NCBI GenBank assembly: GCA_903900705.1
Contig: CAIUOG010000066.1
Location: 62,001 to 126,000 of the forward strand
From: an uncultured Acidobacteriia bacterium
GTDB taxonomy: Bacteria > Acidobacteriota > Terriglobia > Bryobacterales > Bryobacteraceae
Length of the DNA stretch: 64,000 nt
Direction: 5' to 3'
The translations under genes were made by a program, and so were the position numbers. This document shows positions 20,234 through 32,154 of the stretch, one piece after another. The notes beneath the pieces were generated by a model that did no database searches, had not been told where the DNA came from, and saw nothing but the letters and a program-made list of their open reading frames with translations. Position 1 is the first letter of the stretch. The number at the start of each line of letters is the position of its first letter.

Positions 20234-22645
20234 ATGAAAATTTCAGGACTTATTTTCGCCGGTCTGGCCGCGTCGTGCCTGATCCACGCACAAAGCACCG
20301 AGCTCCGGCACAACCCGCCCCCGTCGCACCGTTCCGCCCGCTACGTCTCCTTCCCGAATCAACCTTCGCAGGACCCGGCGGACCCGGCCACACTCCGCAC
20401 CGGCCTGAACTCCCGCGCCACCGTCGCCACCGTCCCCATTTGGGCTTCCACAGATGGCGCCTACGGCTACCAGATGGTCGGCGCCAGCCCCATGACCGCA
20501 GCCGCCGGAACCACCACAATTCCCACCGTCATCGTCCCCCTGGTGCTGACTTTTGCGGACGGCAATAAGTCTGATCCAACGGCCTCGAACACCTGCTCCT
20601 CCCAGTCGCCCGTGTCGCTGGTGCAGTCGTCCCCTATTTTTAACAACTACGCCTTTACCGCCGGCGGCGTCAGCCTCGGCTCCACGCAGTTTCTCGATGC
20701 CTTCCAGCGCGCCAACTTCTGGCAGTATGCCGGTCCCACCGGAATCAGCCCGAACTACCACACTCTCCTTTCCCAGACCACGCTCGCGCCCATTGCCATC
20801 GCCGTTCCCTCCGCCAGCGGCAGCACGGTCGCGGCAACCTGTGGCCGCCTCGGCGAAATGGACCTCAACTGGTTCGACTCCTATGTGCAGGGCACCGTCT
20901 TTCCGAAGCTCGCCACGCTCGGCGTTACACCCTCCAGCCTCCCGGTCTTTCTGCTCTACAACACCGTGATGTATCAAACGACCACCAGCAACTGCTGCAT
21001 CATCGGCTATCACTCCGCCTTCAACAACCCCAGCTATTCCAGCGCCGTGCAGTCCTATGCCGTGGCGGACTTTGAGACCTCCGGCAGCTTCGGAAGCACG
21101 CAGGACATCGCCGCTCTTTCCCACGAACTCGGCGAATGGCTCGACGATCCCACCGGCAACAACCCGACACCCTACTGGGGCCACATCGGCCAGGTCAGCG
21201 GCTGCCAGAACAATCTCGAGGTTGGCGATCCGCTGAGCGGAACCGAACTCGCCGTCACCATGTCGAACGCCTATACCTACCATGTTCAGGAACTGGCCTT
21301 CAAAAGCTGGTTCTATCACGACGCCGCCTCGTCCGGCGTGAACGGCTGGTACTCGTCCAACGGCACCTTTAAGGCCCCCGCCGCCTCCTGCGAAACCTCC
21401 ACCACCTCGCTCACCATCACCCCGGTCAGCATCGCCGCCGGGTCCTCCACTACGGTTGCGATCAAAGTGGCGCCCGGTTCCGGTTACACCGGCATCCCGT
21501 CAGGCGCCGTGAATCTGGTCAACAGCACGTCCGCCACGACTCTCGCCACCTACACTCTCAGCGGCGGCGCGGTGAATACGACTGCCGTACTGCCCGCTGG
21601 CAGCTACAACGTCACCGCCAACTACACCGGAGATCTGAACTTTGCCGCCAGCACCTCCGCCGCTGTCGCGGTCACGGTCGGAACGGCCTCGGCCACTGTG
21701 AGCCCCGTTTCGCTCGCCTTCGCGAGTCTGGCCGTCGGAACCTCCGGCGCCGCCCAGACTGTCACGTTCACCAACACCGGTACCGCGCCCGTCACCATCT
21801 CCTCGGTCTCCATCACCGGCGCCAGCCCCGCCGACTACAGCCAGACCAACACCTGCGGCAAGAGCGTAGCGGTGGGTGCGAAGTGTACCGCATCTGTCAT
21901 CTTCAAGCCGACCGCGACCGGGACCCGCACGGCAACGCTCGCCTTCGCCGACAACATCGCCGGCTCGCCCCAGACAGTGGCGCTCTCGGGAACGGCGACG
22001 GCCCCCGCCGCGCCGGTCGTCAGTCTCAGCCCCACGTCGCTTACCTTCACCAGTACGGTGGTGGGCGTCTCCAGCGCCGCCCAGACCGTCACGGTAAAAA
22101 ATACCGGCGCCGCATCGCTCAGCATTACCTCTGTCTCCGTCACCGGGGACTACAGCCAGACCAATACCTGCGGAACCAGTCTCGCGGCCGCGGCAAGCTG
22201 CTCCATCGCGGTGACCTTCAAGCCCACCGCGTCCGGCGCCCGAACCGGGTCACTGAGCATTGCCGACAACGCCTCCGGTTCGCCCCAGACCGTTTCTCTC
22301 ACCGGTACAGCTACTGCTGCCACCGCGCCGAAGGTGACCCTCAGCCCCACCTCGCTGAGCTTCGCTTCCACCACCGTCGGGACCACCTCGGCCGCAAAAA
22401 CCATCTCGCTCACCAACAGCGGCACGGCGCTGCTGACCATCAGCTCCATTGCCGTGAGCGGAACCAATGCCCCGGATTTCGCACAGACCAACAACTGCGG
22501 AACCAGTCTGGCGGTAAATGCCGCCTGCACGATTTCGGTGACTTTCAAGCCGACCGCGAAGAGCAGTCGCAGCGCTTCCATTACTATCTCGGATAACGTT
22601 GCGGGATCTCCCCAAAGTGTATCTCTCAGCGGCACTGGTAAGTAG
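20234..22645 (+). CDS. Secreted HExxE peptidase-like protein with Ig-like and three HYDIN-type repeats
   Basis: An 803-residue exported protein. After the signal peptide (MKISGLIFAGLAASCLIHAQ) comes a head of about 370 residues with SHELGEWLDDPTGNN (H297, E298, E301) followed by NLEVGDPLSG. This resembles putative zinc peptidases with HExxExxxDP and a later acidic-GD segment. Next is a bacterial Ig-like domain (about 385-475). Three choice-of-anchor-D/ASPM-SPD2-HYDIN repeats of about 105 residues follow, each with SLxF...VG, a Cys pair (NTCG...C) and FKPTA. The protein is probably a cell-surface or secreted enzyme or adhesin. Peptidase activity is inference from the motif only. The next gene is a full-length paralogue. 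Confidence 0.75.
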   Translation: MKISGLIFAGLAASCLIHAQSTELRHNPPPSHRSARYVSFPNQPSQDPADPATLRTGLNSRATVATVPIWASTDGAYGYQMVGASPMTAAAGTTTIPTVIVPLVLTFADGNKSDPTASNTCSSQSPVSLVQSSPIFNNYAFTAGGVSLGSTQFLDAFQRANFWQYAGPTGISPNYHTLLSQTTLAPIAIAVPSASGSTVAATCGRLGEMDLNWFDSYVQGTVFPKLATLGVTPSSLPVFLLYNTVMYQTTTSNCCIIGYHSAFNNPSYSSAVQSYAVADFETSGSFGSTQDIAALSHELGEWLDDPTGNNPTPYWGHIGQVSGCQNNLEVGDPLSGTELAVTMSNAYTYHVQELAFKSWFYHDAASSGVNGWYSSNGTFKAPAASCETSTTSLTITPVSIAAGSSTTVAIKVAPGSGYTGIPSGAVNLVNSTSATTLATYTLSGGAVNTTAVLPAGSYNVTANYTGDLNFAASTSAAVAVTVGTASATVSPVSLAFASLAVGTSGAAQTVTFTNTGTAPVTISSVSITGASPADYSQTNTCGKSVAVGAKCTASVIFKPTATGTRTATLAFADNIAGSPQTVALSGTATAPAAPVVSLSPTSLTFTSTVVGVSSAAQTVTVKNTGAASLSITSVSVTGDYSQTNTCGTSLAAAASCSIAVTFKPTASGARTGSLSIADNASGSPQTVSLTGTATAATAPKVTLSPTSLSFASTTVGTTSAAKTISLTNSGTALLTISSIAVSGTNAPDFAQTNNCGTSLAVNAACTISVTFKPTAKSSRSASITISDNVAGSPQSVSLSGTGK

Positions 22646-22744: not shown

Positions 22745-25198
22745 GTGAGCTGTACCGCGTTACGAAGGCTTCCCGCCTTTTTTGTCTTATCTCTTTCCGC
22801 TTTTAGTCAGATATTTCATGGCTCGGAAGAGACTGTGAGCACTCCGCCCTCGCGGCCTGTCCGCTACGTTTCACGTCCTGCGAATACCACGCGGTCTCTG
22901 AATCCCGAATCCTTCAGCACAAGAGCCGCGGGCGCTTCCGTGTCCGCCCTGCCTCTCTGGCAGGCCACTTCAGGATCTTACTCCTATCAGATGGTGGGCT
23001 CCAGTCCTCTGCAGGCCGGCGCGGGCACAACCACAATACCCGCCGTGATTATTCCGGTTACCATCAAATTCTCTGACGGCACGACTTACGATCCTGCCGT
23101 CACCAGCACCTGCTCCACGCAGACTCCTCTTTCTCTCGTACAGTCATCGCCTTTGTTTAATAGCGCGAATTATACAGTGGGCGGCGCCAACGTGGGCGCC
23201 ACTCAGTTTGCCGATTATTTTCAGCGTGCGAATTTCTGGCAATCAACGGGCGGCGGCCTCAGCCCGAACTATCACATCCTGCTCAGCGCTTCCGCGGCGC
23301 CCTCTGTACAGATCACGGTTCCGGCCGCGAACGGTAAGACCGCTGCCGCGGGTTGCGGACGTCTGGGCGAGATGGATATTAACTGGTTCGACAGTTATCT
23401 CATCAATACGGTTTTTCCGGCTCTCTCTTCCACGGTGCATCCCTCGATGCTTCCGGTATTTGTCCTCGAAAACGTCGTCATGTATGAGACGACCGCCACC
23501 AATTGCTGCATCCTGGGTTATCACTCCGGCTTCAGCAGCTCCGGCGCGCTGCAGACTTATGTGGTGGCGGACTTCGATACCAGTAACAGCTTCGGCAGCA
23601 CGAAAGACGTCGCCGCCATGTCGCATGAAATCGGGGAATGGCTGGACGACCCCACGGGTAACAACGCCACGCCTTCCTGGGGCAATATCGGCCAGGTCTC
23701 CGGCTGCCAGGGGAACCTCGAAGTAGGCGACCCGCTGAGCGGCTCCAACTTTACCGTCACCATGTCGAACGCCTACGTATACCACCTGCAGGAACTGGCC
23801 TTCAAAAGCTGGTTCTTCCGGGATTCTCCATCCACCGGCGTGAACGGCTGGTATTCGTCGCGGGGAACCCTCACCACGCCGTCGAAGCCCTGCAATATCT
23901 CAACAACCAGCCTGACCATCTCGCCCACTACCCTCTCACCGGGTTCCGCCGCGACCGTGAAGATTACCGTCGCGCACAGTTCCGGTGGCAGCGGTACGCC
24001 AACTGGGAACGTGACCCTGGTGGACAGCCTGAGCACCACGCCCCTCGCGACCTATCCGCTCAGCGCCGGCGCAGTCAACACCACCATCACCACTCTGCCC
24101 TCCGGCAGCTATACCGTGACAGCCAACTACCCGGGTGACTCCAACTTCGGCCCCAGTTCTTCCTCCCCGGTATCAGTCACAGTCGGCGCGCCCGGCGTCA
24201 CGCTGACGCCGCTTTCGCTCGCCTTCCCAGGTACCACCATCGGCAACAGTTCCGCCACGCAATCGGTCACCATCTCCAATTCCGGTACCGCGCCACTCAA
24301 CATCGCTTCCGTCTCCTTCACGGGTGGCAGCCCCGGTGACTATACCCAGACGAATACCTGCGCCGCCGCCCTCGCGGTTCATGCCACCTGCACGGTCGTC
24401 GTGACCTTTAAGCCCACGGCGGCAGGCGTCCGGACCGCCTCGCTGAGTGTCGCCGACAACGCCACCGGCTCGCCCCAGGCCGTCGCACTCACCGGAACGG
24501 CTGTGGCCGGCGCACCCGCTCCCCGCGTCACCCTCAGTGCCGCCGCGATCACCTTCCCTTCCACGCTGGTGGGTTCAGCCAGCACGTCTCAGAGCGTCAC
24601 CATCACCAACAGCGGCAATGCCATTCTCACCGGCATCTCAATCACAAAGGCGGGCGTCAGCCCCGGCGACTTCACGGAAACCACCACCTGCGCCGCCACC
24701 CTCGCCGCCGCGGCCAGTTGCACCGTCACGGTCGCCTTCAAGCCCACGGCGGCATCCGCGAGGTCCGCCACCGTCAGCATTGCCGACAACGCCACCGGCT
24801 CGCCCCAGATCATCACGCTTTCCGGCGCCGGCGCCAGCCCGAACGCGGGACCCCGGGCCACCCTGAGCGTCACGTCCCTGGCCTTCCCCTCCACCGTGGT
24901 GGGCGGCGCGAGCGCCAATCAGACGGCCACACTCACCAACACCGGAACCTCCACGCTTACGCTGGCCGCCGTCTATCTGACCGGTACGAACGCCACGGAT
25001 TTCATTGGCTATACCACCTGCGGCCAGACTTTGCCGGCCGCCGCCAGTTGCGACGTCACGCTTGCGTTTAAGCCGAAGGCCGCCGGCGCCCGCACCGCTT
25101 CCGTCGTCTTCATCGACAATGCTTCTCCGGTCAACGGCTCCGCCGCGACCCAATCGGTGGCACTTTCGGGCGCCGCCACCGTCAAAAGCACGAAATAG
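22745..25198 (+). CDS. Paralogue: secreted HExxE peptidase-like protein with Ig-like and three HYDIN-type repeats
   Basis: An 817-residue protein collinear with its upstream neighbour. It has a signal peptide, the head with SHEIGEWLDDPTGNN and NLEVGDPLSG, an Ig-like domain, and three HYDIN-type repeats with conserved Cys pairs and FKPTA or FKPKA. The start is GTG 22745, with AAGGAG about 8 bases before it. The head regions share long identical stretches (for example NAYxYHxQELAFKSWF), so the pair arose by tandem duplication and both heads are under constraint. The 99-base spacer has only a weak CGCT/AGCG hairpin, so the two may be cotranscribed. A strong hairpin follows at 25208. Confidence 0.75.
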   Translation: MSCTALRRLPAFFVLSLSAFSQIFHGSEETVSTPPSRPVRYVSRPANTTRSLNPESFSTRAAGASVSALPLWQATSGSYSYQMVGSSPLQAGAGTTTIPAVIIPVTIKFSDGTTYDPAVTSTCSTQTPLSLVQSSPLFNSANYTVGGANVGATQFADYFQRANFWQSTGGGLSPNYHILLSASAAPSVQITVPAANGKTAAAGCGRLGEMDINWFDSYLINTVFPALSSTVHPSMLPVFVLENVVMYETTATNCCILGYHSGFSSSGALQTYVVADFDTSNSFGSTKDVAAMSHEIGEWLDDPTGNNATPSWGNIGQVSGCQGNLEVGDPLSGSNFTVTMSNAYVYHLQELAFKSWFFRDSPSTGVNGWYSSRGTLTTPSKPCNISTTSLTISPTTLSPGSAATVKITVAHSSGGSGTPTGNVTLVDSLSTTPLATYPLSAGAVNTTITTLPSGSYTVTANYPGDSNFGPSSSSPVSVTVGAPGVTLTPLSLAFPGTTIGNSSATQSVTISNSGTAPLNIASVSFTGGSPGDYTQTNTCAAALAVHATCTVVVTFKPTAAGVRTASLSVADNATGSPQAVALTGTAVAGAPAPRVTLSAAAITFPSTLVGSASTSQSVTITNSGNAILTGISITKAGVSPGDFTETTTCAATLAAAASCTVTVAFKPTAASARSATVSIADNATGSPQIITLSGAGASPNAGPRATLSVTSLAFPSTVVGGASANQTATLTNTGTSTLTLAAVYLTGTNATDFIGYTTCGQTLPAAASCDVTLAFKPKAAGARTASVVFIDNASPVNGSAATQSVALSGAATVKSTK

Positions 25199-26429: not shown

Positions 26430-26741
26430 GTGTCATTTTCACTTCTCCTGCTGCAACAGCAGCCTTCCAATTCGATCTATCTCTTTGCGCCCTACGCTCT
26501 GATCGCCGTAGTCTTTTATTTTCTTTTGTTTATGCCTATGCAGAAGCAAAAGAAAAAACAGGCCCAGATGCTTGCCGACCTGAAAGCCGGCGACTCCGTC
26601 ATCACCAACGGCGGCCTTATGGGCACCGTCACCGCCGTGGATGGTGACACAATAGTTCTCAGAATCAAACCGGACAACCTGAAACTTCAGTTCGCCCGCT
26701 CCGCAGTCAGCTCCATCGTGCTGCCGGAAGGCACGAAGTAA
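26430..26741 (+). CDS. yajC: Preprotein translocase subunit YajC
   Basis: A 103-residue protein with one N-terminal transmembrane segment (APYALIAVVFYFLLFMPMQ) followed by a basic stretch QKKKQ. The YajC core KAGDSVITNGGLMGTVTAVD is present. YajC associates with SecDF in the accessory Sec complex that assists protein export. The start is GTG 26430, one base after the tgt stop, with GGAAAG upstream. Position between tgt and secD is the usual one. Confidence 0.95.
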   Translation: MSFSLLLLQQQPSNSIYLFAPYALIAVVFYFLLFMPMQKQKKKQAQMLADLKAGDSVITNGGLMGTVTAVDGDTIVLRIKPDNLKLQFARSAVSSIVLPEGTK

Positions 26742-26765: not shown

Positions 26766-28391
26766 ATGCAACGAAATCTGACGATCAAGACGGTTGTAAT
26801 TGTGGCTACCGTACTGATCTGCATCTTTGGAATCATTGGCTTACCCACCTCCGTGGCGAAGCTGCAGTCCAACATCGCCCACAATATCCACCTCGGGCTG
26901 GACCTCAAGGGCGGCAGTCACCTCGTGCTGCAGGTTCAGGTTCAGGACGCGGCCAAGGCCGAAGCCGATCAGGTGATCGAGCTGCTGCGCGAAGAAACCC
27001 GCACCCGCAACATCCTGGTGGCCGGTGGCTTCGACCGCAACGACCCGGAAACCCTCAAGGACACTGAAAACATTCAGGTTACCCTCCACGGCGTCGACCC
27101 CGCCAAGGCTTCGATTCTTCGCAGCATGGTGACGGAGAAGTTCCCGGACTGGACCCTTTCCGGCCTCAACGCCAACGATTACAAAATGAACATGAAGCCC
27201 AGTTCGGTCCTCGAACTGAAGCGCAACACGGTCACCCAGTCTCTCCAGACCATCGAAAAGCGCGTCAATGAGCTCGGACTGACTGAGCCGACCGTGCAGG
27301 CGCACGGCGACCCGGTCACCCAATCGGAAATCCTGGTGGAGCTTCCTGGTGAAGGCGACCCGGCCCACGTGAAGGAAATCATCGGCGCCACCGCGCAGCT
27401 CAAAATCGTGGAAGTGAAGAATGAGGGCCCCTGGAAGACAGCGCAGGAAGCGCTCGGCGCCAAGGGTGGCATTCTGCCGCTCAATACCGAACTCCGTGAA
27501 TTCGTTTCCGCCGGCGCTTCCGGTGGCTGGTACCTCATCTCCCGCACCCCGGTGATCACCGGCCAGGATATGCGCAGCGCCAAGGCCGCCACAGACCCCG
27601 ACAGCCCGGGCCGCTGGGAAACCAGCTTCACCCTCTCGCAGGACGGTGCGCGCCGCTTTGAGCGTTTCACCCAGGCGAACATCGGCAACCGGCTGGCCGT
27701 CGTGCTCGATACCCAGATCCGCAGCGTTGCCACCATCCAGAGCGCCATCAGTGACTCCGGCCGCATCAACGGCCTCAGCAGCGATCAGGAAGCGAACGAT
27801 CTGGCCCTCGTCCTCCGCACGGGCGCGCTGCCCGCCGGCATTAAGTACCTGCAGGACGCCACGGTTGGCCCGTCCCTCGGTCTCGATTCCATCCGCGAAG
27901 GGATTTTCTCGGGCATCGCCGGCTTGGTGGCCGTCATTATCGTGATGCTGATTTATTACAAGAAGGCCGGCCTCAACGCCGTTCTGGCGCTGCTGCTCAA
28001 CACCATCCTGCTGATGGCGGCGCTCTGCTACTTCGGCGCAACGCTGACCCTGCCAGGCATCGCGGGCATCATTCTCACGGTCGGTATGGCCGTCGATTCG
28101 AACGTGCTGATCTTTGAGCGTATCCGGGAAGAAATCCGCTCCGGCAAATCAATCATTGCCGCGGTCGACGCGGGCTTCGGCAAGGCGTGGTGGACCATCG
28201 TGGATACCCACGTCACCACCATCGTCTCGTGTCTCTTCCTGTTCATTTTCGGGTCCGGTCCGGTGAAGGGCTTCGCCGTCACCCTCGTGATCGGTCTCCT
28301 GGCCAACGTCTTTACGGCGGTCTTCGTTTCGAAGGTGATCTTCGACTGGGAGCTCTCCGGCAAGACCGAAGTCACCGAACTCAGCATCTAG
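26766..28391 (+). CDS. secD: Protein translocase subunit SecD
   Basis: A 541-residue inner-membrane protein. Transmembrane helix 1 is near residues 8-26, followed by the conserved LGLDLKGGSHLVLQV. A large periplasmic P1 region of about 330 residues follows, then five transmembrane helices with YYKKAGLNAVLAL, LTLPGIAGIILTVGMAVDSNVLIFERIREE and the GKAWWTIVDTHVTT segment. SecD with SecF uses the proton gradient to complete translocation of exported proteins. Length is within the normal range for short SecD proteins. The secF gene follows after 150 bases that contain a hairpin. Confidence 0.97.
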   Translation: MQRNLTIKTVVIVATVLICIFGIIGLPTSVAKLQSNIAHNIHLGLDLKGGSHLVLQVQVQDAAKAEADQVIELLREETRTRNILVAGGFDRNDPETLKDTENIQVTLHGVDPAKASILRSMVTEKFPDWTLSGLNANDYKMNMKPSSVLELKRNTVTQSLQTIEKRVNELGLTEPTVQAHGDPVTQSEILVELPGEGDPAHVKEIIGATAQLKIVEVKNEGPWKTAQEALGAKGGILPLNTELREFVSAGASGGWYLISRTPVITGQDMRSAKAATDPDSPGRWETSFTLSQDGARRFERFTQANIGNRLAVVLDTQIRSVATIQSAISDSGRINGLSSDQEANDLALVLRTGALPAGIKYLQDATVGPSLGLDSIREGIFSGIAGLVAVIIVMLIYYKKAGLNAVLALLLNTILLMAALCYFGATLTLPGIAGIILTVGMAVDSNVLIFERIREEIRSGKSIIAAVDAGFGKAWWTIVDTHVTTIVSCLFLFIFGSGPVKGFAVTLVIGLLANVFTAVFVSKVIFDWELSGKTEVTELSI

Positions 28392-28541: not shown

Positions 28542-29789
28542 ATGGAATTATTTAAAAAAACGAATTTCGATTTTCTCGGCCACAAGTGGCCCTTCATTAT
28601 CGCCTCGCTGGTGCTCAGCGTGGGTGGGCTGCTGAGCCTCGCCGTCAAGGGCGGGCCCAAGTATGGCATTGAGTTCAAGGGCGGCCTGCTGATGACCGTC
28701 CGTTTCGCTTCCAAGCCGGACGTGGAGAAGATCCGTACCGTGCTTTCGAAGGTTCTGTCCCAGCCGCCGAGCGTCCAGACGTTCGAAGGCGCGTCAGACC
28801 AGAACGAAGTTGAGATTGAAGTGGGCGTCGACAGCACCGGCCGGAAAGATGCGGACGCCGAACTTGAGCGCAGTAAGAAGCTTGTGATCGATACGCTCGC
28901 GCAGACCTTCGGCCAGCCCGGCAACGGCAAGCTGGACCTCAATAACGCGACCGCCATTCAGTTGAGCCAGCGTATTATCGATCCCCTGCAGAGGGCGGGC
29001 GTGTCTCTGTCCGTGCAGCAGGTGGAAGAGCTCGCGACGGCCGTTATCGGCTTCCGTGATTCCCACGGCGGTCTGATTACAAAGATTGACGATCTGCGTG
29101 GCGTTCCCGGCTTGACGCCGCAGGCCCTGACGGTATTCAATCAGGAGAGCTATCTTGCTCCCTATACGGCCGCGCGCAGCAGTGAGAGCGTTGGTCCGAA
29201 GGTTGGCGCAGACCTGCGCAGCCAGGCCATCAGCGCAACTCTGCTTGCATTGGCCGGCATGTTGGTATATATCTGGTTCCGGTTCGAATGGGTTTACGGG
29301 GTGGGGGCGGTGATCGCAGTGTTCCACGACACCATCATCACCATCGGAATCTTCTCGATTATGGACAAGGAAATCAGCCTCACGGTTATCGCCGCGCTGC
29401 TGACGCTTGTTGGTTACTCGATGAATGATACGATTGTCATCTTCGATCGTATTCGTGAGAATCTCCAGCTGAACAAGCGTGGAGGCCTGGTGGACGTAAT
29501 TAACCTGAGCGTCAACCAGACGCTGAGCCGGACGGTGATGACTTCCGGGTTGACGTTCCTTGCGGTTCTTGCGCTGTTTTTATTTGGCGGACCGGTGCTT
29601 CATGGTTTCTCTTTGGCGCTCGTTATAGGTATCATTATTGGAACGTACTCTTCAGTGTTTGTGGCGAGCCCGATTGTCCTCGCATGGCATGACTGGGCCG
29701 ACAAACGCAGAAAGACTGCTCCAGAGGTTCCTGTCTCTGCCCCCCGTGCGGGCGCTCCGGCCAAAGGTTCTGTGAAGGCGGCAAAGTAA
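28542..29789 (+). CDS. secF: Protein translocase subunit SecF with ComEA-like HhH insertion
   Basis: A 415-residue SecF, about 90 residues longer than typical. Transmembrane helix 1 (about 15-34) and YGIEFKGGLLMTVRF are canonical. The C-terminal half from VGPKVGADLRSQAI carries five transmembrane helices, with SMNDTIVIFDRIREN near the end. Between residues about 128 and 210, in the periplasmic P1 region, is an extra segment. It reads LDLNNATAIQLSQRI, then ELATAVIGFRDSHGG, then IDDLRGVPGLTPQAL, the pattern of a ComEA/GspK-type helix-hairpin-helix domain. No strong Shine-Dalgarno is seen at ATG 28542. Confidence 0.93.
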   Translation: MELFKKTNFDFLGHKWPFIIASLVLSVGGLLSLAVKGGPKYGIEFKGGLLMTVRFASKPDVEKIRTVLSKVLSQPPSVQTFEGASDQNEVEIEVGVDSTGRKDADAELERSKKLVIDTLAQTFGQPGNGKLDLNNATAIQLSQRIIDPLQRAGVSLSVQQVEELATAVIGFRDSHGGLITKIDDLRGVPGLTPQALTVFNQESYLAPYTAARSSESVGPKVGADLRSQAISATLLALAGMLVYIWFRFEWVYGVGAVIAVFHDTIITIGIFSIMDKEISLTVIAALLTLVGYSMNDTIVIFDRIRENLQLNKRGGLVDVINLSVNQTLSRTVMTSGLTFLAVLALFLFGGPVLHGFSLALVIGIIIGTYSSVFVASPIVLAWHDWADKRRKTAPEVPVSAPRAGAPAKGSVKAAK

Positions 29790-29930: not shown

Positions 29931-30683
29931 ATGTTTGAGCAGACATTCGTTGAAGGCACAGGAAAAACGAATAAGCCGTACACCATCCTGCTGTCGTTCG
30001 CAATCCAGCTGGTAGCGATCGGCATTCTCGTTATCATTCCGCTGATCTATTTCGACGCACTGCCGCAGGCGCAGTTGTCGACCTTTCTGACGGCTCCTCC
30101 GCCGCCGCCTCCGCCCCCGCCGCCGCCTCCTCCGGCCGCCGTGAAAGTGGTGAAGGTTACCCCCAAACAGTTCAACTCCAACATCCTGACGGCGCCTAAA
30201 ACGGTTCCGAAGGAAGTGAAGATGATTACGGAAGAAGAAGCGCCCATGACGGCGGGCGTTGTCGGTGGTGTCCCGGGCGGCGTGCCTGGCGGTACCGCGG
30301 GCGGCGTTCTCGGCGGTATCATCGGTGGTCTGCCCAGCGCGGCCCCGCCACCGCCGCCTCCTCCTCCGGCTGCGAAGCCGAAGCCCCCGGCAGTTCCCCA
30401 ACGCGTCGGTGGTAACGTTATGCAGGCGAGCCTCATCCGCCAGCCCAAGCCGGTGTACCCGCCGCTTGCCAAGGCAGCTCGCGTACAGGGAACCGTGAAG
30501 TTCGAGGCCCAGATCGCCAAGGACGGCACGATTCAGAATTTGCACCTCATCAGCGGTCCTCCCCTGCTCGTTCAGGCGGCGATGGCAGCGGTGCAGCAGT
30601 GGCAGTACAAGCCGACACTTCTCAACGGTGAACCCGTGGAAGTGATCACGACCATCGACGTCAACTTCACGCTCAGTCAGTAG
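29931..30683 (+). CDS. tonB: TonB family energy transducer
   Basis: A 250-residue protein. It has an N-terminal membrane helix (about 19-41) and a periplasmic linker with 13 consecutive prolines (56-68), then a glycine-rich VPGGVPGG repeat and a second 8-proline run. The C-terminal TonB domain (about 165-250) has PVYPPLAKAARVQGTVKFEAQI and AVQQWQYKPT. It transmits ExbB/ExbD energy to outer-membrane receptors such as those at 13705 and 50312. First gene of a tonB-exbB-exbD-exbD operon. The start has AGAGAGGG before it, overlapping a TAGAGA hexamer 7 bases upstream, with TTGAGC 16 bases further up, so promoter and ribosome-binding signals overlap. Confidence 0.9.
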   Translation: MFEQTFVEGTGKTNKPYTILLSFAIQLVAIGILVIIPLIYFDALPQAQLSTFLTAPPPPPPPPPPPPPAAVKVVKVTPKQFNSNILTAPKTVPKEVKMITEEEAPMTAGVVGGVPGGVPGGTAGGVLGGIIGGLPSAAPPPPPPPPAAKPKPPAVPQRVGGNVMQASLIRQPKPVYPPLAKAARVQGTVKFEAQIAKDGTIQNLHLISGPPLLVQAAMAAVQQWQYKPTLLNGEPVEVITTIDVNFTLSQ

Positions 30684-30744
30684 TGGAGTAAGGCAGCGCT
30701 GGCCGGTTTTTTCATAAATCAACTCGCAGGAGAAGAAGACTAAA

Positions 30745-31485
30745 ATGCTTTTACAGATGCAGGTTTGGGCGTTCATGCTGTTGCAGGAAGCCGGAGCGCC
30801 GGGTTGGGATTTCCGCCACCTCTGGATTCAGATGGGTACGCTGGCCAAGGCCGTCGTCATCATCATGTTCCTGATGTCCGCTTGGTCGATTGGTGTCATG
30901 ATCGACCGTCTGATGGCGTTCAACGCCGCTCGCAAGCAGAGCCGCCAGTTCGCTCCGGCGGTTGCCGGCGCGCTCCGCGAAGGGAAGCTCGACGAAGCGA
31001 TCAAGATCGCCGATCGCTATAAGAAGAGCCACCTTGCCAAGGTCGTTGTCGCTGGACTCCAGGAATTCCAGGCGCACCAGGGTAACACCGAAATCTCCGG
31101 TGAAGAGATTGAAGCCTCCAAGCGCGCCCTCGAACGCGCGGAAGCGATTGTTCACGCCGAACTGAAGCGTGGCGTCAGCGCCCTCGCGACAATCGGTTCC
31201 ACTGCCCCGTTCGTCGGTCTCTTCGGAACCGTCGTCGGCATTATCAACGCGTTCAAGACGATGGCTGCGGAAAAGACCCCCGGTATCGGCGCGATCGCCG
31301 GTGGTATCTCGGAAGCGCTCGTTACGACAGCTATCGGTCTGTTCGTCGCCGTTCCCGCCGTCTGGATGTTCAACTACTTCACCGGTCGTGTTGATGCATT
31401 CGACGTCGAAATGGGCAACTCCAGCTCCGAACTGGTCGATTACTTCCTGAAGCGTGCGCAGGCCCGCTCCGGCGCGCGTAAGTAG
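30745..31485 (+). CDS. exbB: MotA/TolQ/ExbB proton channel family protein
   Basis: A 246-residue inner-membrane protein with three transmembrane segments: about residues 32-53 and two in the C-terminal half, the latter with STAPFVGLFGTVVGIINAF and EALVTTAIGLFVAVPAVWMFNYF. This is the standard ExbB/TolQ motor-channel arrangement. The protein forms the pentameric channel in which ExbD sits, converting proton flow into motion of TonB. AGGAG precedes ATG 30745. A 210-base spacer with a strong hairpin separates it from the first exbD, which may set unequal expression. Confidence 0.95.
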   Translation: MLLQMQVWAFMLLQEAGAPGWDFRHLWIQMGTLAKAVVIIMFLMSAWSIGVMIDRLMAFNAARKQSRQFAPAVAGALREGKLDEAIKIADRYKKSHLAKVVVAGLQEFQAHQGNTEISGEEIEASKRALERAEAIVHAELKRGVSALATIGSTAPFVGLFGTVVGIINAFKTMAAEKTPGIGAIAGGISEALVTTAIGLFVAVPAVWMFNYFTGRVDAFDVEMGNSSSELVDYFLKRAQARSGARK

Positions 31486-31530
31486 TCAGCTGCAGCGATT
31501 AAGAAACACTCTGGCGAGTTGATTGACTGA

Positions 31531-31561
31531 CCGTGGCGGTGGTTTCGAACCGCCGCCACGG
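31531..31561 (+). promoter_or_regulatory. Strong intercistronic hairpin between exbB and exbD
   Basis: CCGTGGCGGTGG (31531-31542) and CCGCCGCCACGG (31550-31561) form a 12-base stem with one G-T pair and a 7-base loop TTTCGAA. No T-run follows, so full termination is unlikely. Partial termination or 3'-end protection of exbB mRNA is plausible. Confidence 0.55.
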
Positions 31562-31645
31562 GATCTCCGAAAGCAGTGCTTCTGTTTCCGGGGACGGTCG
31601 GCTGGCGAGTGAGTGTGCGATGCCCGGTTCCTCCGGTCGTCGCAT

Positions 31646-31687
31646 CAATCAGCGAAGCGTATCAGGCAATCAGCGAAGCGTATCAGG
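31646..31687 (+). repeat. Perfect 21-base tandem duplication upstream of exbD
   Basis: A 21-base unit beginning CAATCAGCGAAGCGT occurs twice head to tail (31646-31666, 31667-31687). The final AGG of the second copy begins the Shine-Dalgarno AGGAGAG of the exbD gene at 31696. The first copy lacks the extended ribosome-binding sequence. Confidence 0.85.
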
Positions 31688-31695
31688 AGAGACGA

Positions 31696-32154
31696 ATGAC
31701 AAAGAAGAAAGCGCCGCCACCAGTGGCGGACATTAACGTCACGCCGATGGTCGACGTGATGCTCGTGGTGCTGATCATCTTCATGGTTATCACCCCGATG
31801 CTCTCAAAAAGTATCCCTGTAGATCTGGCAATGACGCGCAATCCGATCACCATGCCGGACGCGGACAAGGAAGATGCGATCATCGTGGCGATCACTCGCG
31901 ACGGTCAAACCTTTCTCAGCCCCGGCCTGAAGAAAACGGAACCGTCTGACCTCGCCCCGGCCGTGAAGGAACTGCTGACGGGCCGGACGAGCAAAATGGT
32001 TTATATCAAGGCCGATGCGCGTTCGAAGTACGAGAGAGTGGAAGAAGTCGTCGATAACCTCCGGGCTGGAAGCGTGGACGAAGTTGGTTTGCTCACCGAG
32101 CAGACTGCGGACGCCAAGAAGCTCGAAAAAGCGCAGGCAGCGACAACGAAGTAA
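31696..32154 (+). CDS. exbD: ExbD/TolR family protein (first copy)
   Basis: A 152-residue protein with a short cytoplasmic N terminus and one transmembrane helix, INVTPMVDVMLVVLIIFMV, that contains the proton-carrying Asp. A periplasmic ExbD/TolR domain follows (KMVYIKADARSKYERVEEVVDNLRAG). It forms the rotor-like dimer inside the ExbB pentamer. ATG 31696 with AGGAGAG upstream is chosen; an in-frame extension to 31576 would add residues encoded by the 21-base tandem repeat and has no family similarity. It differs clearly from the next exbD in sequence and linker. Confidence 0.93.
   Translation: MTKKKAPPPVADINVTPMVDVMLVVLIIFMVITPMLSKSIPVDLAMTRNPITMPDADKEDAIIVAITRDGQTFLSPGLKKTEPSDLAPAVKELLTGRTSKMVYIKADARSKYERVEEVVDNLRAGSVDEVGLLTEQTADAKKLEKAQAATTK

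Follow-up and report, generated by a model that had tools for sequence, protein, structure and literature searches.

A putative ComEA/GspK-type helix-hairpin-helix domain in the periplasmic P4 domain of SecF from Acidobacteriota

Introduction

In E. coli, proton flow is accompanied by movement of the P1 and P4 domains of SecDF; its periplasmic domains meet YidC and BAM, and those of YidC also meet BAM; the precise mechanism of SecDF is still called unclear (PMC8669966, in part). SecDF entries from Thermus (3AQP, 5YHF) and Deinococcus (5XAM, 5XAN, 5XAP) have the same architecture as the SecF described here, with the GG motif, P4 and membrane helices. At the site where this protein carries a large insert, the family model TIGR00966, which represents ordinary SecF, allows for no more than nine positions (97-105). 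Lineage-specific extras have a precedent in cyanobacteria, where both SecD and SecF carry insertions, but these are described as helix-loops and not as a helix-hairpin-helix (HhH) domain, and they belong to another phylum (PMC13174344, in part).

Binding of DNA by HhH domains typically involves backbone contacts to phosphates, and the substitutions K164A and K199A in B. subtilis ComEA lower transformation more than 100-fold (PMC9747964, in part). The DNA-binding domain of ComEA and the Pfam family HHH_3 share with the SecF insert two hairpins, a D-x-N type start and an A-x-x-I...R helix; unlike them, the insert is mostly acidic or neutral, has a long and variable first hairpin and lacks the second glycine, and unlike ComEA it is lodged within a membrane protein. 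The first domain of GspK, a minor pseudopilin of type II secretion, shares with the insert the K-L-x-L-N start, A-I-x-D-W-R, a V-x-G-h-T-P second hairpin and acidity, but differs from the SecF insert in an insertion that separates its helix 2 from the second hairpin. Chain U of photosystem II (PsbU) is a further case of an HhH-like fold that helps to build a membrane complex, but it is a separate protein that matches the insert weakly. In a tree legend, psbU is placed beside ComEA-type HhH proteins (PMC4777378, in part).

Here we describe a SecF encoded in a 64,000-nucleotide stretch of DNA (the window) from the genome (6.1 Mb, 99.87% complete) of an uncultured, soil-type Acidobacteriia bacterium. 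No description of an HhH domain in SecF was found in the open-licence PubMed Central literature searched, and the HhH-bearing SecF is thus a variant that we did not find described there.

The secF locus and its product

Apart from its insert, the product of the window secF is by sequence a normal SecF (Table 1). It scores about 298.2-298.4 bits with TIGR00966, well within the family at a curated cut-off of 160, and its alignment falls into two stretches (model positions 1-96 and 106-279) that flank the extra segment. The gene order (tgt, yajC, secD, secF, then tonB, exbB and exbD) agrees with this assignment, as secF follows yajC and secD, and the presence of SecD_SecF_C marks the protein as SecF and not as a pseudopilin of the GspK kind. 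Its sequence relatives in the PDB are the Thermus, Deinococcus and E. coli entries (5MG3 chain F, from E. coli; PMC8669966, in part), and alignment of the whole protein with Thermus and Deinococcus SecDF by VIA-align gives Z 20.4-24.9, covering 284-295 of 415 residues.

Table 1. Features of the secF locus in the window; residue numbers refer to SecF.
Feature	Coordinates	Strand	Basis
yajC	26430..26741	+	
secD, partner upstream of secF	26766..28391	+	ordinary P1 head PF22599, P1 N-terminal part PF21760
secF, SecF with putative HhH insertion, 415 aa	28542..29789	+	ORF, TIGR00966
First transmembrane helix, residues 12-35, predicted	28575..28646	+	DSSP on AlphaFold2 model
Canonical P4 before insert, residues 48-123	28683..28910	+	DSSP on model
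Extra segment of SecF, residues 124-206	28911..29159	+	
Putative HhH domain, residues 130-206	28929..29159	+	profiles, hhalign, AlphaFold2, structural matches
D-x-N signature, residues 132-134	28935..28943	+	D 52/55, N 54/55 aligned inserts
HhH helix 1, residues 138-151	28953..28994	+	AlphaFold2 models
HhH helix 2, residues 158-174, with R172 in 51/55 inserts	29013..29063	+	model, alignment
G177, sole invariant insert residue, 55/55	29070..29072	+	alignment
Second hairpin: helix 182-187, VPGLTP turn 188-193 (G190 50/55), helix 193-202	29085..29147	+	
Last P4 strand, residues 208-217, into VGPKVG and next membrane helix	29163..29192	+	model

Downstream of secF and on the same strand, the window carries tonB, exbB and exbD (29931-32154), so that Sec and Ton energy-transfer genes adjoin. 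Four relatives of the same genus (L232, L233, L234, L235) have a gene for a 113-130 aa HhH protein and an ssb-like frame upstream of tgt-yajC-secD-secF; at that site the window instead encodes two large proteins that bear ASH and Ig-like domains (20234-22645 and 22745-25198). The neighbouring ComEA-like gene is an unlikely source of the SecF insert, because SecF with the insert occurs far outside this genus.

Position of the insert in P4

Structure prediction with AlphaFold2 used the window SecF and 55 relatives as input. In the resulting model, P4 before the insert comprises strands 48-55, 77-80 and 89-95 and helices 61-71 and 104-123, and the insert occupies the connection between the last P4 helix (104-123) and the last P4 strand (208-217). 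The membrane topology of the helix at residues 12-35 is assigned as in the SecF family. Between residues 96 and 218 the window protein has 122 aa, against 35-56 aa in the 17 insert-less members of 81 sampled SecF, so that by sequence comparison about 80 residues are extra. The first-pass annotation, made from the sequence, had put the excess at about 90 residues, which is nearly right, and had named the N-terminal segment P1; this label belongs to a domain of SecD, the soluble domain of SecF being usually called P4. The strings on which it had based the module are all present (LDLNNATAIQL at residues 131-141, AVIGFRDSHGG at 167-177 and DDLRGVPGLTPQAL at 183-196).

Evidence for an HhH fold

The extra segment is identified as a ComEA/GspK-type HhH domain from sequence profiles and a predicted structure. 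Profile searches, hhalign with shuffled controls, and structure prediction all bear out the earlier reading of a ComEA/GspK-like HhH in the periplasmic loop of SecF, and none of them left the insertion without such a fold. Pfam HHH_3 (PF12836) matches the window fragment at E of about 6e-5 to 8e-5 (7.8e-5 and 6.2e-5, with 23.1 and 23.5 bits) and the whole SecF at E 0.0035 (17.8 bits). The gathering cut-off of 27 bits is reached by neither, and the window copy is therefore termed HhH-related and not a Pfam HHH_3 member. In an alignment set of 55 inserts (the window and 54 loci), Pfam matches at E ≤1 comprise HHH_3 in 27, T2SSK_1st in 9 (best E only 0.015), HHH in 7 and T2SSK in 2, the best E among the other Pfam families listed being 0.0045. 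With whole SecF as queries (56 proteins, two of them insert-less), HHH_3 is found at E ≤0.1 in 14. The NCBIfam list is topped by GspK and ComEA models; at E ≤0.1, GspK matches 17/55 inserts (best 4.3e-5; the window copy is not among these), comE 15/55 and TIGR00426 9/55.

Profile-profile comparison was carried out by hhalign with domains taken entirely from relatives' genomes: 12 ComEA-like, 16 GspK first, 17 Tex-like, and GspK second domains (the ComEA-like and Tex-like labels were assigned by us from motif and frame length, and L206 was left out). The 55 inserts gave probabilities of 97.1 with ComEA-like, 95.5 with GspK first, 93.5 with Tex-like and 3.1 with GspK second domains, and 60 phylum-wide inserts gave 97.3, 91.2, 95.3 and 27.0, respectively. 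Five column-shuffled profiles stayed at or below 5.0 in 20 comparisons, so that the likeness to ComEA-type HhH domains stands above the shuffled controls. The likeness to GspK concerns its first domain, because the second scored so low. Searched against solved structures, the insert sequence gave KIF22 at E 0.096 as its only match, and the best E of the insert profile was 0.43 (an endonuclease/exonuclease/phosphatase-family protein).

The whole SecF is modelled with mean pLDDT 86.1 and pTM 0.73, residues 131-210 reaching pLDDT 92-97 in blocks of ten, and the insert alone with mean pLDDT 89.1 and pTM 0.80. The modelled insert has helices at 138-151, 158-174, 182-187 and 193-202, and two short strands (131-132 and 203-204) close the domain. 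Foldseek places ComEA (8dss_B) first with probability 1.00 and E 0.06, with no match at E <0.001. By VIA-align, the insert aligns with ComEA at Z 8.7 (2.7 A, 70 aligned), with Tex at Z 8.6, 8.2 and 5.9, with the ComEA-like 2duy at 7.1, with RlmN at 6.3, with photosystem II chain U at 4.4-5.2, and with argininosuccinate lyase and the rest at ≤4.4. The predicted fold thus agrees with solved ComEA-type HhH domains at modest Z and E, and VIA-align Z of this size is also attainable for helical models that have no clear relative; the fold assignment carries weight because the structural matches agree with the sequence profiles. GspK is not in the Foldseek or VIA-align match lists for the insert, which carries no weight against kinship with GspK, and VIA-align with the whole SecF returned a list filled by SecDF and RND pumps, uninformative on the insert.

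Distribution, history and selection

The whole window SecF matched 240 of 247 Acidobacteriota genomes at E ≤1e-30; f15 and f65 gave no SecF match at this threshold. The SecF sample consists of 80 genomes and the window (81 in all) and is non-random: genera of family f4 of both kinds were chosen on purpose, and the family codes f2, f61, f66, f68, f73, f74 and f75, whose SecF matches span the whole query, have no sampled genome. A survey of SecF length, proposed in the first-pass annotation, found the long segment with the insert in 64 of the 81 and no insert in 17, which is not a random share because of the purposeful f4 choice and the omitted families. Besides the 17 short ones, 60 SecF have 107-138 aa between residues 96 and 218, and 4 have 198-208 aa. 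Two full HhH copies stand in tandem before VGP in L167 and L156; L191 has a very long segment with one good profile match, and in L150 the segment is very long through a low-complexity linker. In five loci (L158, L165, L187, L190, L132), one continuous frame of about 937-1001 aa terminates in SecF; these frames are taken to be SecDF fusions and retain the insert. Two f25 genomes (G137, G245) have two SecF matches each.

A profile built from the 55 inserts matches 63 of the 64 long SecF at E <1e-3 and, rebuilt once on the same sequences, all 64; none of the 17 short-segment SecF is matched in either round. The profile finds 150 of the 247 Acidobacteriota genomes, which undershoots the sampled share with insert, so that its silence elsewhere is no proof. 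Among the matches listed, nearly all frames are of SecF or fused-SecDF size (329 to 1001 aa), two having 205 and 279 aa. The phylum to which L101 (titled Parvularcula) belongs was covered by 299 genomes, of which 3 matched weakly (5 matches), all in frames of 105-110 aa and none of SecF size. In the phylum of G590, 7 of 294 genomes matched, comprising one SecF and six weak matches in frames of 136-204 aa. G590 corresponds to L077, a bin titled Tepidisphaeraceae, and contains an Acidobacteriota-type SecF contig as well as a 1142-aa frame that gives two SecF matches; because of this additional frame, the L077 SecF contig is probably contamination of the public bin. None of five further genomes (four alphaproteobacterial and one insert-less acidobacterial) was matched. 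The SecF of L095, from an alphaproteobacterial bin, has a segment of 67 aa, longer than in the other outgroup rows, and has no profile match; it was counted insert-less.

The history of the insert was followed on a quick IQ-TREE tree of 98 SecF cores from which the insert columns had been removed (94 inner branches, 32 starred and 32 open), with an outgroup of seven rows titled Alphaproteobacteria, all scored insert-less. Presence and absence of the insert require 8 changes, whereas shuffled labels average 23 (0/500 as low), and the starred branches alone force 5; the change count cannot separate gain from loss, and the deep branches are weak. With the outgroup scored in this way, the tree is most simply read as a single gain at the base of the phylum followed by about seven losses, a history that 8 changes fit; the module was probably lost several times, which would make it dispensable in some lineages. 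In family f4, it is present in some genera and absent in others.

Rates of substitution were compared for 15 of 19 same-genus loci (identical sequences taken once), of which 62 of 105 pairs were usable. Median dN/dS values are 0.23 (insert), 0.21 (P4) and 0.07 (membrane part), and these ratios are rough because the dS medians of 1.4-1.5 are high and near saturation. On this rough measure, the insert seems to be under purifying selection similar to that on P4. A matching change in SecD was considered and rejected: 79 SecD were found, and P1 was measured by pattern in 76 of them, 59 paired with an insert-bearing SecF and 17 with an insert-less one. P1 length does not differ between these two sets (Mann-Whitney p 0.97), does not track the insert and gives no hint of a partner for the module.

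Alternative explanations

The nearest folds of the insert include ComEA, a binder of incoming DNA (PMC9747964, in part), and the HhH might accordingly bind DNA and link SecDF to DNA uptake or to periplasmic DNA. We hold this to be very unlikely from the composition of the inserts. Their net charge has a median of -2 and is positive in 1/55, the other 54 being neutral or negative, whereas the medians are +2.5 for ComEA-like (10/12 positive) and +6 for Tex-like domains of relatives (17/17), and -5 for GspK first domains (0/16); in the phylum sample, the charge is positive in 5/60 for residues 127-205 and in 10/60 for residues 125-211. A glycine at column 192, where the second hairpin glycine was placed, is found in 0/55 inserts, and so is a basic residue (K/R) at column 164, which would correspond to the key lysine K164 of ComEA in a register inferred from the A-x-x-I helix. 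The inserts thus lack the hairpin glycine and the basic phosphate contact of DNA-binding HhH domains and ComEA. Basic residues are not wholly absent, as column 200 is basic in 33/55, which speaks for DNA binding as far as it goes, and the G-h-G motif alone is indecisive, being found in 4/12 ComEA-like domains and as a string somewhere in 10/55 inserts.

That the HhH likeness arose by chance or from the artefact of a single assembly is scarcely credible: the window copy does stay below the Pfam threshold, but the insert recurs in most of the sampled SecF, its profile separates these almost completely from the insert-less ones, the shuffled hhalign controls are low, and the insert is modelled with high confidence. 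A weightier alternative, which we consider possible though not likely, is that the module is a tolerated and largely inert spacer, an old self-folding insertion doing little. The roughly seven losses on the tree, the 17 insert-less SecF, including f4 genera whose close kin keep the insert, and the absence of a matching change in SecD length would all suit a spacer; against it stand the similar dN/dS of insert and P4, the finding of the insert by its profile across more than half of the phylum's genomes, and the near-invariance of D132, N134, R172, G177 and G190, the conservation of this core being explicable also by folding alone.

Proposed role of the HhH domain

For the insert, the domain, its place, its conservation and its spread in the phylum were computed. 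We lean towards the HhH domain between the last P4 helix and strand acting as a packing or docking knob for protein and not as a DNA binder; such a protein-contact role is the most likely one because the charge of the insert and the missing glycine and basic residue argue against DNA binding. The two roles named in the first-pass annotation fare differently for the same reason: packing of the GspK kind is preferred, and DNA binding of the ComEA kind is disfavoured by the charge and the absent second hairpin glycine. That annotation had identified the module correctly and had been careful in assigning it a role.

In the proposed mechanism, the HhH would be periplasmic, placed at the end of P4 that presumably faces away from the membrane, because the last strand runs straight into a membrane helix. 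The two short strands would fix the HhH and make it move with P4 and SecD P1 during the proton-driven cycle, and its surface would pack against or dock a candidate partner: the SecD P1 head, YidC, an outer-membrane assembly factor or chaperone, or the emerging preprotein. More speculatively, and with a chance that we rate as rather low, the HhH may be a second SecDF 'head' that, in time with proton flow, binds the polypeptide as it emerges or passes it on to a partner in outer-membrane assembly. If this were true, the Sec motor of the acidobacterial ancestor would have had an extra domain for handling substrates or partners, doubled in some lineages.

SecDF is a widespread export motor, and a module at a defined place in P4 that occurs throughout a phylum but is missing from some close kin provides natural pairs with and without the insert, which could show what the insert end of P4 touches and does. 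The HhH domain would also show that a fold of the DNA-uptake and pseudopilin type has been re-used within the general export machinery.
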